The notes under the pieces were generated by a model. That model made no database searches. It had not been told where the DNA came from and saw only the letters and a program-made list of their open reading frames with translations. A stretch of DNA of 33,357 bases, taken from NCBI GenBank assembly GCA_012959985.1, contig DUCD01000115.1:1-33357 (forward strand), read 5' to 3'. Within the stretch, counting starts at the first letter, position 1. Each line of letters begins with the position of its first letter. A program made the position numbers and the translations under genes. Source of the DNA: Verrucomicrobiales bacterium (GTDB lineage: Bacteria; Verrucomicrobiota; Verrucomicrobiia; Limisphaerales; DUCD01). Positions 3,941-16,482 of this stretch are shown here, one piece after another.

Positions 3941-5482
3941 ATGACTGAAAAAATGAAATCAATATTCCGAATCATTTCGATTCTCGTGGCCTGTTTGAGT
4001 ATTTCAAACGATTGCAGCACTGCTGAAGCTCGCCCTAACATTATCTTTTTCTTCACGGATGATCAGGCCTACGACACGCTGGGTTGTTATGGCAACCCCA
4101 ATGTAATGACTCCAAATATGGACAAACTGGGGCGTCAGGGTGTGATCTTCGATCGGCATTACGATACTACGGCAATCTGCATGGCGAGTCGGGCCAGCGT
4201 AATGACCGGATTGCTCGAATACAAAACAGGATGCAATTTCATGCATGGGGCTATGACAAAGGAAATCTGGCGCTCTTCTTTTCCAGTGCTACTCAGAAAA
4301 TCAGGCTATCGAACTGGTTTTGGTGGTAAATTCGGTTTCGCAGTTAAGGAACACCCAAAAGATCCCGGATCGGAAAACACCTACAATAATCTACCGGTGG
4401 ATGACTTTGATTTCTGGGTCGGAGGCATTGGCCAAACATCCTATGAAACTAAAAAGAACAAATACCTGGCCAGCTACGCCAAGGATTATCCTCATAGTTC
4501 CAGGGCTTACGGGGCAGCGGGAATCGACTTCATCCGCGAATCAACTAAGACCAAAAAGCCATTCTGCCTGACACTGTTCTTCAAAGCACCGCACCGTCCC
4601 ACGACACCCGATCCGATTTTCGACGAGATCTACCAAAATACTGTTTTCCGAAAACTCCCCAACTACGGACGTAAAGCAGGTGAACACTTGGCTCCGCAAA
4701 GTAAAATGGGACGTCAGTATCCTCGCTTCGTTGATTGGGGCTATCATACTGACAAATCCTACCAGAAAGCCCTGCGCACTTATAATCAACAGATTTATGG
4801 CGTCGATTTTGCGATGGGTATGATTATGGAAGAACTCGAACGACAAGGAGTATCGGACAATACGGTCATCATCTTCTCATCGGACAATGGTTTTTTCAAT
4901 GGATCGCACGGTCTCGGCAGCAAGGTGCTCCCGTATGAGGAAGGCGCCCGGGTTCCACTGATTATTTATGATCCCAGGCAATCAAAGAGTGGTCGTGAGG
5001 GACGTCGATGTGACCGTGTCACCGGCAGTATTGATATCACAGCAACGATACTGGACCTGGCAGGTTTGAAGCTTCCTTCGAACATGGATGGTCAGAGCCT
5101 GATGCCCATCGTAACTGGAAGGAAACCTTCCATCCGCGAATCGCTACCGCTCATTCAGGTTTGGGGACCTGCCGGAACATTGTCATTGAGCGTGGTCACA
5201 CAAAGTCACAAGTATATTTACTGGTTTTACGGAGAAGGCATGCCCCCCGTTGAAGAACTCTTCGATCTTAAGAACGATCCCTATGAAATGGTCAATATCG
5301 CAGAGCAAACCCGAAGCAAGATCATTTTGAATTCCATGCGGCAGCTGTATGATGCGGAGGTGGATAAATGGGAGAAACACGCCGTGCCTTACAATGCCTA
5401 CCAGCCCTTCAGCACTCTTTTCGATCGCAAGGTTTCCTGGGAAAATAAGAAGAAACTGATCCCAAGGCAGTTTGGCCGATGA
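3941..5482 (+). CDS. Secreted sulfatase with CxAxR active-site motif
   Basis: A 513-residue type I (formylglycine) sulfatase. An N-terminal signal-like hydrophobic segment (residues ~8-20) precedes the mature start RPNIIFFFTDD, where Asp40-Asp41 are metal ligands. The modification site is Cys80 in CMASRASVMTG, which has Ala where most sulfatases have Pro. A later SSDNG segment supplies the remaining Asp/Asn ligands. The role is hydrolysis of sulfate esters outside the cytoplasm; the substrate is unknown, with polysaccharide sulfates likely given the neighbours. Two starts four codons apart are possible (ATG 3941 or 3953); the second leaves a more typical signal peptide. No formylglycine-generating enzyme is in the window, so maturation must be supplied elsewhere. 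Confidence 0.93.
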   Translation: MTEKMKSIFRIISILVACLSISNDCSTAEARPNIIFFFTDDQAYDTLGCYGNPNVMTPNMDKLGRQGVIFDRHYDTTAICMASRASVMTGLLEYKTGCNFMHGAMTKEIWRSSFPVLLRKSGYRTGFGGKFGFAVKEHPKDPGSENTYNNLPVDDFDFWVGGIGQTSYETKKNKYLASYAKDYPHSSRAYGAAGIDFIRESTKTKKPFCLTLFFKAPHRPTTPDPIFDEIYQNTVFRKLPNYGRKAGEHLAPQSKMGRQYPRFVDWGYHTDKSYQKALRTYNQQIYGVDFAMGMIMEELERQGVSDNTVIIFSSDNGFFNGSHGLGSKVLPYEEGARVPLIIYDPRQSKSGREGRRCDRVTGSIDITATILDLAGLKLPSNMDGQSLMPIVTGRKPSIRESLPLIQVWGPAGTLSLSVVTQSHKYIYWFYGEGMPPVEELFDLKNDPYEMVNIAEQTRSKIILNSMRQLYDAEVDKWEKHAVPYNAYQPFSTLFDRKVSWENKKKLIPRQFGR

Positions 5483-7748: not shown

Positions 7749-9191
7749 TCATCGCAATTCTATCGCATTTTCCGGAACCCATGTTTCATTATCACGCCTC
7801 CGTTTGATCTGCCACGCTTCCTTAGCACGTTTCGTGTGTAACTCGGTTCGTCGATTGAGCGGCCAGTTGGGATCGGAGCGATGAGCTTCTTTGAAAATGT
7901 TTTGCGCTTTTAACACGAGATCGGTTCGGGATTGGGCCAGATTCTTCGACTCGGCTGAATCGTTACGCAAGTCATAGATCTCAATCGGCTTGTCGATGCC
8001 ATTGCGCACGGCTTTCCACTCACCAAATCGCGCGGCTTGGATGGGCTCATTGCCGAGATGTAATTCCCAGTAGAAATACTCACGCTTGGGCACATTCCCA
8101 CCTTTCAGATACTCCACCAAAGACAAACCGTCGGTTTCGTATCCTTTAGGATGATTGGCTCCACTAAGTTCCACAAACGTCGGCATCAGATCCCAAAATG
8201 CCCACGGTTGATCATCAACACGTCCTGCCGGAACCGTACCCGGCCACCAAGCTAAGGCAGCCTGCCGAAGCGCACCCTCATACATACCGCGTTTGTATCC
8301 ACGCAACCCATTGCTCGCTTGGTCGAACCGTTTTCCTATCTCGGATTCCGGACTGAACGACGATCCATTATCCCCCGAGAAAATGATCAGAGTATTTTCA
8401 GCAATACCGAGTTCTCGCAGGGTATCCACTAATTCACCCATGTCCGAATCAATCCGGGTGACTTGCGCCGCATAGGCCTTCTGTTTATCCGTCCACTGTT
8501 CGTTGCGGTAGATTCCGTAATCGTCTATCTCGTGCCGGCCATGAGGCAGTGTAATGGCATAGAATAAAAGGAACGGTTGATCTGCGTGCTTGCGCAGCCA
8601 ATTAATCATATCGCGTTGAATTAATTCCTGGGCGTAGGTTTCACCAACCTTCCGGCCGTCATTTCCCGGCAGGATGAAGGGTTGTTCATCGTCATATAAA
8701 TAGGTTGGAAAATAGGAATGCGCATGACGTTGACAGTTGTAGCCAAAAAAATGATCAACCCCCTGATTAAATGGGCTGCCTGTGGAATCGAAGAAACCCA
8801 TACCCCATTTTCCGAAGGTGGCGGTTGCATAGTCCGCCGTCTTCGCCACCTCTGCCATTGTGACTGTTTCATCAGGCAACGGCAGTTGGCCCTCAGGAGG
8901 AACCTCATAGTTGCCTCGAATCGGACAATGACCGGTGTGCAAACCAGTGAAGAATGAAGAACGGCTCGGCGCGCAAACACTGGTGCCACAGTAGGCTTGC
9001 AGATAGCGTGTTCCTTCGGTCGCCATTTGATCAAGACGAGGCGTTTTGATCAGTTTCTGTCCGTAGCAGCCTAGATCGCCTTGAGCAATATCATCGCTGA
9101 GAACAAAGATGAAATTCACCTTTCGGTCGGCAGAAGTGGCTTGAAGAAATAAGGGAATCAGACCGATGATGACGTAGAGAATATGTTTCAT
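7749..9191 (-). CDS. Secreted arylsulfatase-type sulfatase (CAPSR)
   Basis: A 480-residue sulfatase with a clear signal peptide (residues ~1-20). The first metal ligands are Asp33-Asp34 in [15 protein letters not shown], and the formylglycine site is Cys73 in [23 protein letters not shown] supplies further ligands, and a C-terminal sub-domain runs from about residue 390. It is shortened relative to many arylsulfatases but has all active-site blocks. It follows the 9233-10690 sulfatase after a 41-base gap on the same strand, so the two probably form an operon with the larger protein first. Substrate not determinable from sequence. Confidence 0.95.
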
Positions 9192-9232: not shown

Positions 9233-10690
9233 TCAGAAGTCCTTAAACGGTCCCCGCGGTTCTGCGTCAATCATGGTCTCCTGATACCAATCGTCAAACA
9301 TTGATTTGATCATAACAAGGATTTCGGGTCGTTCTTCAGAGAGGTCCTTTTTCTCCCCTATATCTTTTGAAAGATCAAAGAGCCCACCACTTTCTCCTTC
9401 CATGTCCACCCATTTCCAGCTACCTACCCGAGCCGCCAACCGGTTCTTACGTTTCCAGAACATTTCAGTTCGTGGACTCTCTGTTTCCCCACGCAGCGTC
9501 GACCACCAATCGTATCCATCGAGAATAACACCTTTGGGCAACTCGGCTCCAGTTACAGCCGCCAAACTTGGAAACAGCTCCAAGCTCGAAAGGAAGGCGT
9601 CGTTTACAACTCCAGCAGGGATCCCGCCCGCGGGCCAACGAATCATGGAAATCACACGAATTCCTCCTTCCCAAGTTTCCGATTTGTGACCGTGCAGAGC
9701 CCCATTGTTTGCTCCACTGCTACCGCCGTTATCCGAGAAGAAAACCACCAAAGTATTTTCAGTAAGGCCCTTTTCATCGATCACACGTAATAACTTTCCA
9801 ATCGACGCATCCATACAGCTAACTGCCGCTCGGTAATCCCGATAACGCTTTTCCCGGCTTGGCACCAGCGCCTCTTCACCATAACGTGAACCCTTCCGGT
9901 AATCTTTCTCCACCGGCGGATACAGCTTTTGAAACTTTGCCGGTGCTTGCACCGAACCGCGGATCTTTGGATCCAGAGAGGAAGAACCATGCGGTGCGTT
10001 GAAAGGCACATAGAGGAAAAAGGGCTCTTTGCCCGCATAGTCACCGAGAAATCGCAGTGCTTCTCTCTCAAACAGGTAAGTGGCATAGGTTCCGCGATCT
10101 TTCTCAGTGCGAGTATTCTTCCGATACATACTATGTATGCCATAGCGTTCGTGGGTGTAATAATCGATACCGGTGTTTACTAATCCATAAAAATCGTCGA
10201 AGCCGCGTGCCAGAGGTAGAAACCGTTTATGAATTCCAAGATCCCATTTCCCATAAATGCCTGACTTGTATCCCAAGGGTTTCAGTATGGCCGGTAACAA
10301 TATCTCCCGCAAATCCATCCCTCCTATACGTTCCCATGTAACGGCGTATTCTTCGGTTTCATACCGGTGGCCATAATCCGGCGCTTCATTTCGAATCATG
10401 TCATAAATACCGTTCCGCTGCGGATAACGGCCCGTGAGAAAAGCAGCCCGTGAGGGAGTGCACGCCGGCCATGCAACATAAAAATTGGTGAGCCGTGTTC
10501 CTTCCGTGGCGAGTCGATCAAGATTCGGTGTATGAATTTCGGGGTTGATCAATCCCAAGTCCCGGTAACCCTGATCATCTGAAACGATCAGCAGGATGTT
10601 CGGTCGTTGAACATCGGCGAAAAGACTGAGGCCAATCATCGAAAACAACACCGCACACACAGCAAGCCTCCGTGGAGTCAATCTGATCAT
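9233..10690 (-). CDS. Secreted sulfatase (CTPSR)
   Basis: A 485-residue sulfatase. Residues ~8-25 are a signal peptide (AVCAVLFSMIGLSLFA). RPNILLIVSDDQGYRDLG carries metal ligands Asp38-Asp39, and Cys77 lies in the canonical CTPSRAAFLTGRYPQRNG. The FFSDNGGSSGANNG stretch and HGHKSETWEGGIRV complete the active site. It is the upstream member of a two-sulfatase operon. Its sequence differs enough from the two other sulfatases here to suggest different sulfate positions or sugars rather than a recent duplication. Exported sulfatases of this kind desulfate polysaccharides before uptake. Confidence 0.95.
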   Translation of the reverse strand: MIRLTPRRLAVCAVLFSMIGLSLFADVQRPNILLIVSDDQGYRDLGLINPEIHTPNLDRLATEGTRLTNFYVAWPACTPSRAAFLTGRYPQRNGIYDMIRNEAPDYGHRYETEEYAVTWERIGGMDLREILLPAILKPLGYKSGIYGKWDLGIHKRFLPLARGFDDFYGLVNTGIDYYTHERYGIHSMYRKNTRTEKDRGTYATYLFEREALRFLGDYAGKEPFFLYVPFNAPHGSSSLDPKIRGSVQAPAKFQKLYPPVEKDYRKGSRYGEEALVPSREKRYRDYRAAVSCMDASIGKLLRVIDEKGLTENTLVVFFSDNGGSSGANNGALHGHKSETWEGGIRVISMIRWPAGGIPAGVVNDAFLSSLELFPSLAAVTGAELPKGVILDGYDWWSTLRGETESPRTEMFWKRKNRLAARVGSWKWVDMEGESGGLFDLSKDIGEKKDLSEERPEILVMIKSMFDDWYQETMIDAEPRGPFKDF

Positions 10691-11024: not shown

Positions 11025-12214
11025 ATGACAGCGAAATGTGATTGTAAACATTGCGGGCAGGCAATTGAGTTTCCTTCGGAAATGGAAGGACAACAAACAG
11101 AGTGTCCCGCCTGTTCGAAGCAGGTCTTGTTACGGACGATAAGCATTGTTTCCGAAAAAACCACCGACTCTTCGAGGAAGAATGATCCCATCGTTGAGAT
11201 TCCTCACGCGACGGAGAAAGGGGTGCCGAATGAATTTGTTGGCAACGAGAGTTCTGCGGCCGTGGTGCGGACAGTGATGGGGAAATTGATTCAAAATATC
11301 GAAGAAGTAATTGTCGGAAAGACTGGAGAAATCACACTGACACTTGTGGCGTATCTGGCAGAAGGGCACGTATTGCTCGAAGATGTTCCCGGCGTAGCGA
11401 AAACCATGTTGGCGCGGGCGCTGTCCCGAAGTGTGGAATGCGGCTTTCACCGGATTCAATGTACGCCTGATCTGCTTCCCAACGACATTACGGGTGCTTC
11501 CATTTTCAACCCGAAGACCTCACAGTTTGAATTCCGCCCAGCCCCCTGTTTTCTCAGATCGTATTGGTCGATGAAATTAACAGGGCGACTCCCCGATCTC
11601 AATCAGCGCTGCTAGAAGCGATGGCGGAGAAGAGAGTCACGGTGGATAGTAAGGAATATGATCTCGACGATCCTTTCTTTCTGATAGCCACTCAGAATCC
11701 TGTAGATCATGAGGGCACCTTTCCCCTGCCCGAAGCCCAGCTGGATCGTTTTCTTATTCGATTGAGCCTTGGTTACCCAACGGCTAAGGAAGAGGCCGAT
11801 CTCCTCGATCGCATCCATCTGGAACATCCGATCGACCGGATCGAACCCGTCACCGATTCAGCCGAAATTATTCAATGCCGTAACAGGGTCCGCGGCGTGT
11901 ATGTGGATCCGTTGGTCAGGTCCTACATTGTTGACTTGGTAAGAGCCACCAGAGAAAACACCGAAGTGGCGCTTGGCGGCAGCCCACGTGCCTCGATTTC
12001 ATTGTACCGGACGGCTCAGGCTTATGCGGCAATTCGCGGCTATGATTACATTCTCCCCGATGATGTGAAACGAATGGCGCCTTACGTTCTACCACACCGA
12101 ATCATCATTCGTCCGGAAAGCCGGATTCGCGGCATCCAATCCGAGGACATCGTCGAACAGGTTCTGCAGCAGGTTTCTGTACCCATAATAGGGTCGGATG
12201 GAGGTCCAGGATGA
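11025..12214 (+). CDS. MoxR-family AAA+ ATPase with N-terminal zinc ribbon, frame broken by one base
   Basis: The N-terminal part encodes a zinc-ribbon-like module (Cys5/Cys7, Cys10, Cys27, Cys30) followed by MoxR sequence with Walker A VPGVAKT (residues ~121-127). The frame then switches from the 11025 frame to the frame of 11564-12214 at the C5 run 11542-11546. On the other side come Walker B LVDEIN, sensor ATQNP and the AAA lid. One extra C would give a continuous FRPAPLFSQIVLVDEIN, as expected for MoxR. MoxR ATPases act as chaperones with DUF58/VWA partners, and the next two genes fit that. As written, the 11025 frame ends at 11615 and lacks Walker B, so this is either a base-calling/assembly error or an inactivated gene. 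Confidence 0.9.
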
Positions 12215-15161: not shown

Positions 15162-15233
15162 AGTGAGATGTGCCGGCACACGCATTTATGGGTAATCGGA
15201 AAACAGCCGGGACTGATGGGTAAGGCTCGCTGT

Positions 15234-15249
15234 CCACAGTGCACTGTGG
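15234..15249. promoter_or_regulatory. Perfect 16-bp palindrome
   Basis: CCACAGTGCACTGTGG is a perfect dyad 73 bases after the DUF4129 gene and 237 bases before the NrtR gene. It may be an operator, a weak hairpin at the operon end (no T-run follows) or part of a dispersed repeat. A second dyad, TGTGCCGGCACA, lies at 15169-15180 just after the DUF4129 stop. Confidence 0.35.
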
Positions 15250-15340
15250 GCAATTTTACTCAAACAGGTTTAGAAAAACTGCGGGGTAACAAACGAAACC
15301 GGGCAAATCAGAAAACTAGATAGCCTTCGGATAAATATCA

Positions 15341-15355
15341 TTATTACAATAATAA
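15341..15355. promoter_or_regulatory. Candidate NrtR-type operator palindrome
   Basis: TTATTACAATAATAA has perfect 6-base arms around CAA. It lies 15 bases before the ATG of the pncB-like remnant (15371) and 115 bases before the NrtR-type regulator start. Nudix-related repressors bind AT-rich palindromes overlapping promoters of NAD or sugar genes and often autoregulate. Position and symmetry are the only evidence. Confidence 0.35.
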
Positions 15356-15370
15356 GCTGTTGCGGAAATC

Positions 15371-15445
15371 ATGAAAAGTTCAGCGGATAGTGATTTGTAT
15401 CAACTGACGATGAAGCGAGCGGTTCGAGAGAACTTTCCACAGTGA
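15371..15445 (+). pseudogene. pncB: Remnant of the N-terminus of a nicotinate phosphoribosyltransferase
   Basis: ATG at 15371 opens a 24-codon frame ending at TGA 15443-15445. Residues 7-23 read SDLYQLTMKRAVRENFP. This matches the conserved N-terminal block of PncB-type enzymes, where an Asp-x-Tyr-x-x-x-Met motif is followed by a helix ending in -FP. No continuation is found in any frame before the NrtR start at 15471, so nearly the whole gene is missing. Alternatively it is a short leader peptide that happens to match. The adjacent NAD-type regulator supports the remnant reading, because nrtR commonly neighbours pncB. Confidence 0.45.
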
Positions 15446-15470
15446 CCGAACATCTGAATCTGGAAGTTCA

Positions 15471-16124
15471 ATGAAAAACACAAAGATCAATCGCTATGTC
15501 GTTTCAGTGGATGTCGTTGTTTTCGGTTATCGGGATCGTCAACTCTATATACCCCTGTTTCTCAGAAACGACCGCGTACCGAATGAACCTTCCTCCGAAT
15601 GCTGGAGTCTGACCGGTGCCCCCATTCAACCACAGGAATCTCCGGAAGAAGCCTGTATGCGAAAACTCGAAGAAGACATCGGACTCTCTATACGCTATTT
15701 GGAGCAACTCCATACCTTCGCCGATCCGAATCGGGACCTTCGTCAACGAACTTTCAGTATTGCCTATTATGCTTTAATGGAATTCAAATTAAAAACGCTG
15801 ATTGGGGAAGAGAATGCAAAATCTGCAGAATGGTTTCCATTGAATAAACTGCCAAAGGGCCCATGGGCATTCGACCATCGCCGCATTCTCGAAATGGCGG
15901 TGACCCGATTGAAAGGAAAATTGCTTTATGAACCGGTGGGATTTCATCTGCTGCCACACGAATTCAGTCTGGCCGACCTATTGTGTCTCTATGAAACCAT
16001 CCTAGGAAGAAATTTCGACCGAAGAAATTTCTATAAAAAGGTCAAGGCCTCAGGGTTAATCCAGTTCATCCGCGAAGTGCCAAGCCGTCGCGGCTACCCC
16101 ACACAAATCTTCAAATTCGATTGA
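15471..16124 (+). CDS. NrtR-type transcriptional regulator (degenerate Nudix domain plus winged helix)
   Basis: 217 residues. The N-terminal Nudix fold (residues ~8-140) has its Nudix box at 49-72 (GAPIQPQESPEEAC, then MRKLEEDIGL). The catalytic REUxEE core is altered to R-K-L-E-E-D, consistent with a ligand sensor rather than a hydrolase. The C-terminal ~70 residues (GFHLLPHEFSLADLLCLYETILGR, then NFDRRNFYKKVKASGLI) form the winged-helix domain typical of NrtR/AraR-like regulators. Known members sense ADP-ribose or related NAD derivatives, or sugars, and repress nearby genes. The pncB-like remnant directly upstream favours NAD control, but the present target is unclear because no intact NAD gene is in the window. 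Confidence 0.87.
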   Translation: MKNTKINRYVVSVDVVVFGYRDRQLYIPLFLRNDRVPNEPSSECWSLTGAPIQPQESPEEACMRKLEEDIGLSIRYLEQLHTFADPNRDLRQRTFSIAYYALMEFKLKTLIGEENAKSAEWFPLNKLPKGPWAFDHRRILEMAVTRLKGKLLYEPVGFHLLPHEFSLADLLCLYETILGRNFDRRNFYKKVKASGLIQFIREVPSRRGYPTQIFKFD

Positions 16125-16482
16125 AAACGCTACCGGCAAATAAGAAAATCAGGGATGTCATTCGATATTTTCTGAAAATCCGTAACGGATATGCCAATAA
16201 GATCTTTGTTACATCTGTTACATTCCCCCCTGACCTTTGGAAAGTTCGAGCTCATTCAATCAGAGCGAAAGGAAAGCATCAGAAACAGGATTGGATTGAA
16301 TGAAATTCACATCACGATGATTTAATTACTTCCGGTATACTCTTCCTCGCTGTAGGGCATTTTTCCTGAGAAAAATAATTCTGGGCCAAATCTCTCATTG
16401 CCCAGCTCACAAGAAATCAGTAAAATGGATTGGTAATCAAAGATTACCAATCCAAGCTACCATCAGAAACAACTAAATCATC
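16125..16482. other. Intergenic region with two hairpins
   Basis: 358 bases between the regulator and the VOC gene. A TTG-initiated 60-codon frame (16121-16303) has no recognisable homology or ribosome site and is probably not a gene. A 7-base-arm hairpin (ATTTTTC, loop CTGA, GAAAAAT) lies at 16359-16376, and the 12-base-arm hairpin at 16427-16453 is listed separately. Confidence 0.5.
16427..16453. promoter_or_regulatory. Perfect 12-bp inverted repeat with 3-base loop before the VOC gene
   Basis: GGATTGGTAATC, AAA, then its exact reverse complement ending at 16453, 29 bases before the TTG start of the VOC protein. No T-run follows, so it is not an obvious intrinsic terminator. It could be an operator or an mRNA 5' hairpin controlling the VOC gene. 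Confidence 0.55.

Follow-up and report, generated by a model that had tools for sequence, protein, structure and literature searches.

Signs of a lost nicotinate-salvage operon in decay: a pncB stub ahead of a truncated nrtR

The window, the whole stretch of 33,357 nucleotides that was analyzed, very probably carries the remains of a lost nicotinate-salvage operon, in which pncB would have been cut to a stub of 24 codons and the regulatory gene nrtR would be the next to decay. The locus is an ordinary gene loss with an unusually legible scar. As such, it offers a readable case of the loss of a regulated salvage pathway, with the enzyme going by internal deletion and the local repressor decaying afterwards. 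It also carries a warning for annotation, in that the presence of nrtR in this genome should not be read as a sign that NAD is salvaged or that the regulator works. Further, a pair of nrtR with an E. coli-type pncB was probably once present here, this type of PncB being rare among genomes of the class (a search with the PncB of the related locus L103 found it in 3 of 384). Literature searches on NrtR with pseudogenes or Verrucomicrobia yielded nothing on such a case. The elements of the locus are as follows.

15334-15352, no strand assigned: possible eroded NrtR box AAATATCATTATTACAATA, with 3 mismatches to WAGTGT-N7-ACACTW; overlaps the palindrome
15341-15355, no strand assigned: palindrome TTATTA-CAA-TAATAA with AT-only arms; operator role not supported
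15371-15445, forward strand: 5' remnant of pncB (MKSSADSDLYQLTMKRAVRENFPQ), 24 codons from the original ATG start codon to a TGA; nicotinate phosphoribosyltransferase, E. coli type
15446-15470, forward strand: putative deletion scar, the interval from the stub to nrtR, recognized from the sequence
15471-16124, forward strand: nrtR, truncated, 217 codons, encoding a Nudix-like domain and an NrtR winged-helix domain
16122-16124, forward strand: in-frame TGA ending nrtR ahead of the conserved tail, recognized by comparison with homologues
16125-16175, forward strand: relic of the C-terminal tail of NrtR, not translated, reading KRYRQIRKSGMSFDIF up to a TGA in the frame of nrtR and aligning with the family tail

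The palindrome, the 24-codon frame, the 15-base spacer between the end of the palindrome (15355) and that frame, and the regulator all lie where the first-pass annotation had placed them. The relic lies between two terminator-like stem-loops, one at 15231-15252 (CCACAGTGCACTGTGG core), 3' of a DUF4129-like gene, and the other at 16426-16454 on the minus strand, ahead of a glyoxalase-family gene. Elsewhere in the window, a gene for a MoxR-type AAA ATPase is split over two overlapping frames (11025-11615 and 11564-12214, matching positions 1-62 and 67-131 of the AAA_3 model, respectively). The switch of frame falls close to a CCCCC run and is either a genuine frameshift or a fault of the assembly; DUF58 and DUF4129-like genes lie downstream of the split gene. 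The window also contains three sulfatase genes within 7 kb (3941-5482, 7749-9191, and 9233-10690).

The 24-codon frame and the fate of pncB

By its sequence, the 24-codon frame is the start of an E. coli-type (TIGR01514) nicotinate phosphoribosyltransferase. In whole-library scans, its top family is TIGR01514 in NCBIfam (E=0.011, with residues 2-24 covering positions 3-25 of the model) and PF17767 in Pfam (E=0.025), and its matches in the PDB are exclusively nicotinate phosphoribosyltransferases (1vlp, E=0.22, KSLLDTDMYKITMHAAVFTNFP against KSSADSDLYQLTMKRAVRENFP). The pattern D-x-D-x-Y-x-x-x-M, found shortly after the start codon in TIGR01514, is present. When aligned without gaps from the start codon, the stub is identical in 10 of 24 residues to the PncB of L103 (MTTLLDNDLYKFTMMQAVWAKYPE; score 53) and likewise in 10 of 24 to that of L104 (score 51), against maxima of 24 and 18, respectively, among the 1616 control 24-mers taken from the other start codons of the window (z=7.6 for the score of 53). 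The earlier suggestion that the stub matches the start of nicotinate phosphoribosyltransferase is thereby borne out, as is the PncB identity read from the motif DLYQLTM; the subfamily is refined to the E. coli type, which matches the whole stub. A TIGR01513-like PncB, the commoner type in the window's own order (L035 and others), was rejected as the source, its N-terminus matching DLYQLTM only and then diverging (e.g., SYGYW). Similarly, a fusion junction within the stub after LTM is ruled out, the likeness to TIGR01514 continuing over all 24 codons. Consisting of 24 codons only, the frame lacks the catalytic core (PF04095, about 385 residues) and is a remnant rather than a member of the PncB family. 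That a mere 24 residues are compared, with E-values of 0.01-0.2 across whole libraries, might suggest a chance likeness in a frame unrelated to pncB. This we find hardly credible, given that one family tops both curated libraries and provides the sole kind of PDB match, that the score lies far beyond the control distribution, and that the stub stands at the right place, on the right strand, and beside the right partner gene.

The gene order in relatives points in the same direction. A search of genome contigs with an alignment of NrtR recovered 80 loci (the window protein alone recovered none), and the NrtR comparison set comprised 125 sequences, namely, that of the window and 124 homologues. 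The best homologues in the taxonomic order of the window are mostly 38-45% identical, and many of them are preceded on the same strand by pncB, alone or together with nadE; several genomes of this order carry the other PncB subfamily (L035 and others), arranged as pncB-nrtR or pncB-nadE-nrtR. The closest NrtRs (50-52% identical) come from other families of the class, and the window NrtR groups with the NrtRs of L103, L104, and L105 in a single clade (support 1.0). In L103, pncB directly precedes nrtR on one strand, with pncA after nrtR, and the order in L104 (also catalogued as L124; Coraliomargarita sp. SDUM461004, NZ_JARXIC010000035.1) and L109 is pncB-nadE-nrtR-pncA. The comparison with related nrtR-pncB loci that the first-pass annotation had called for thus shows L103 and L104 with pncB ahead of nrtR in the same orientation. 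The closest relatives accordingly have an E. coli-type pncB before an nrtR of this type, and the window retains only the first 24 codons of such a pncB.

Several neighbors of nrtR in these loci deserve mention in their own right. The genes farther downstream in L103 are read as encoding a Nudix protein, an ADP-ribosylglycohydrolase (L103:1577-2566), PnuC, and NadR. In L105, in which neither pncB nor pncA was seen, two genes read as ADP-ribosylglycohydrolases (L105:4983-6994) adjoin nrtR; such neighbors would fit a regulator that senses ADP-ribose. We also found a conserved gene pair near nrtR (L105:2274-4256, also in L033, L036, and L106), of which the first gene product starts like MxGIxFIKVQPTxYLLQYRxGxVVREGxGLSFFYYAPTTS and the second like TENKIVLVTRPTRLAEL.

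We propose that the ancestor had pncB, possibly followed by nadE, ahead of nrtR in the same orientation, and that an internal deletion, starting at about codon 25 of pncB, took away almost all the rest of that gene. The deletion would probably have been out of frame, leaving 24 codons that read into a TGA, with the start of nrtR 25 bases on. With PncB in relatives being about 385 codons long, we infer that about 360 codons (about 1.1 kb) are missing, or more if nadE was included. In a different frame, 15446-15470 reads TVTEHLNLEVQ*, its TGA overlapping the ATG of nrtR. These may be the final codons of pncB or of nadE, but the likeness to PncB or NadE C-termini is not significant (14-52% of control 11-mers equal it), so that a C-terminal remnant here is no more than conjecture. 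The nearest NrtR compared is 52% identical, and the deletion is thus not polarized within its own lineage. The proposal of the first-pass annotation that pncB was deleted, with its first codons left before nrtR, is well supported by the homology of the stub, the gene order in relatives, and the lack of PncB in the genome.

Two other explanations of the same layout were weighed. The deletion might be an artefact of an assembly that joined two parts of the locus, with the organism keeping an intact operon. The genome is indeed a draft of 524 contigs, and elsewhere on this contig the moxR-like gene appears to be frameshifted close to a C-run. However, no trace of the missing parts was found on any contig, pncA is missing as well, and the changes in nrtR are not explicable by assembly error; we therefore judge an artefact improbable. 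Alternatively, the frame could function as a leader peptide, which was the second reading of the first-pass annotation, or as a translational coupler, governing nrtR expression and retained by selection after the loss of pncB. The original start codon and the open frame are kept, and only 25 bases separate the frame from nrtR. Descent from PncB, however, accounts for all 24 codons, there is no terminator-like attenuator between the stub and nrtR, and in none of the loci examined (with no close relatives among them) does a stub occur without full pncB. A leader peptide thus finds no support and appears very unlikely.

NAD genes and operator sites in the genome

The reading of a lost salvage operon extends beyond the locus. 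Profile searches of the genome of the same organism recovered neither the N-terminal domain of nicotinate phosphoribosyltransferase (PF17767) nor its core (PF04095, at E<=1), the L103 PncB used as a query found no match, and the same Pfam searches gave matches in E. coli as a positive control. The search for an intact pncB elsewhere, proposed in the first-pass annotation, accordingly found none by any of the three routes. Likewise, no pncA (nicotinamidase) was recovered by NF008623 and no PnuC or NadR by sequence search; nadC, nadA, and nadE (or a nadE-like protein) were found. The genome (7.5 Mb) is 94% complete, so that an intact pncB or pncA could sit in a gap, and a gene of the pncB/NAMPT family is likely absent. 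With pncA and other salvage genes not found elsewhere in the genome, NAD is most likely made de novo; salvage of nicotinate and nicotinamide has probably been lost, with the organism depending on NadA and NadC.

The sequence and position of the palindrome are as first described; its role as an operator is not upheld, given the different box in relatives, its single copy in the genome, and the ease with which it arises by chance. Among shuffled 60-bp stretches of the same composition, 18% contain an inverted repeat with 6-bp arms. The first-pass annotation had suggested looking for further copies, but TTATTA-CAA-TAATAA occurs exactly once in the 7.5 Mb, its near matches do not exceed those of the control, and a role as a genome-wide operator is not supported. 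In L103 and L104, boxes of the form WAGTGT-N7-ACACTW lie 12-13 bases before pncB, with further sites before pncA, and similar boxes are found in other loci of the window's order. No such box with up to 2 mismatches occurs anywhere in the window. The best match in 15162-15480, the one overlapping the palindrome, is equaled by shuffles in 3.6% of 60-bp stretches and may be an eroded NrtR box. Across the genome, the box of the relatives is not enriched (24 matches versus 42 for a reversed-pattern control). NrtR motifs vary widely among lineages (PMC4666351, PMC6800001), and a shifted motif is possible in the window. One could carry this further and suppose that selection maintains both the stub and the shortened NrtR, with the former pncB promoter and start serving as a short translated leader that tunes an orphan regulator of NAD status with the shifted site TTATTA-CAA-TAATAA and new targets; we would accord such a scheme very little probability.

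State of the NrtR regulator

The regulator is of the NrtR type, as its clade membership and its matches to the NUDIX (PF00293, 47.8 bits) and NrtR_WHD (PF21906, 55.2 bits) domains, both above the cut-off, indicate; it scores 103.5 bits with the NCBIfam equivalog NF050029, below the cut-off of 400. Its Nudix motif (GX5EX7REUXEEXGU; PMC4666351) is impaired, with A50, K65, and D69 replacing G, E, and E. R91 is kept, being invariant in all 124 homologues, and would correspond, according to alignments and the numbering in PMC4666351, to Arg98 of SoNrtR, which contacts ADP-ribose. The basic residues of the wing are also retained.

Beyond the stop at 16122-16124, the frame continues up to the next TGA as a relic that aligns with EARYHELKEQGYAFGF of L103 and RAKYRQLEKKGFNFEI of L130. 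In the family, the tail is typically like KKYxxLKKxGFxFEI, and 120 of the 124 homologues extend by 14 residues or more beyond the position of the stop; the window NrtR has lost a 16-residue tail. As this same-frame relic is the C-terminal tail of the family, nrtR carries a premature stop. Further, six changes at near-invariant positions (P48T, G50A, Y81H, G84A, P90L, and R209Y) are seen in none of the 124 others. This is the highest count of such private changes among the 125 sequences; the next is 3, and L105, which is just as isolated, has none. The window NrtR also forms the longest terminal branch of the 125, and its distance from the ancestor of its clade is 0.90, compared to 0.58-0.61 for its sisters. 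By alignment, the counterpart of G50 in BtAraR would be Gly48, a residue lining the ligand pocket (PMC4666351).

Taking these findings together, nrtR is probably decaying, rather than proven dead, and NrtR may have lost its function. Without an adjacent target, nrtR would itself have begun to decay, with the stop removing the conserved tail and conserved residues changing. The single-base stop could itself be an assembly error. One possibility is that, pncB having been deleted, NrtR persists as a working, slightly shorter orphan repressor of itself and perhaps of other NAD genes. Its 217 open codons with both domains matching, the retained R91 and basic wing residues, and the disorder of the last residues in one chain of BtAraR (PMC4666351), by analogy with which the tail may be dispensable, all speak for this option. 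It remains doubtful, however, in view of the stop ahead of a tail so widely kept, the G50A change in the GG motif of the ligand pocket, the fastest branch of the set, the lack of enrichment of the relatives' box, and the palindrome having no second exact copy. The orphan regulator that the first-pass annotation proposed is at odds with the stop before the conserved tail and the signs of relaxed constraint.

Comparison with known systems

The closest counterparts are the pncB-nrtR-pncA and pncB-nadE-nrtR-pncA loci of the Coraliomargarita lineage (L103 and L104), which resemble the window in PncB subfamily (TIGR01514), strand, order, and NrtR clade. In those loci, pncB, nrtR, and pncA are intact, with boxes before pncB and pncA, whereas the window has a stub and a truncated nrtR, and pncA was not found. 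Of NAD genes linked to nrtR, the window contains the pncB remnant only; intact pncB, nadE, and pncA stand beside nrtR in the closest relatives.

With the NrtR repressors of NAD genes, such as that of Shewanella oneidensis (3gz5/3gz6) and MsNrtR of M. smegmatis (PMC6800001), the window NrtR shares a Nudix-like domain with an impaired motif and a winged helix, and, by alignment, the ADP-ribose-binding arginine of SoNrtR is conserved. It departs from that family in having no C-terminal tail, a changed GG motif, and no intact NAD gene adjoining. BtAraR (5bs6, PMC4666351), an arabinose-responsive repressor of the NrtR family, has the same domain architecture and is the best PDB match (E=2.8e-30). 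However, BtAraR has Gly89 where the window NrtR has R91, this glycine of the AraR branch being absent from the window NrtR, and the close relatives of the latter adjoin NAD genes, not arabinose genes. On these comparisons, the window NrtR is probably a truncated and decaying descendant of the NrtR family.
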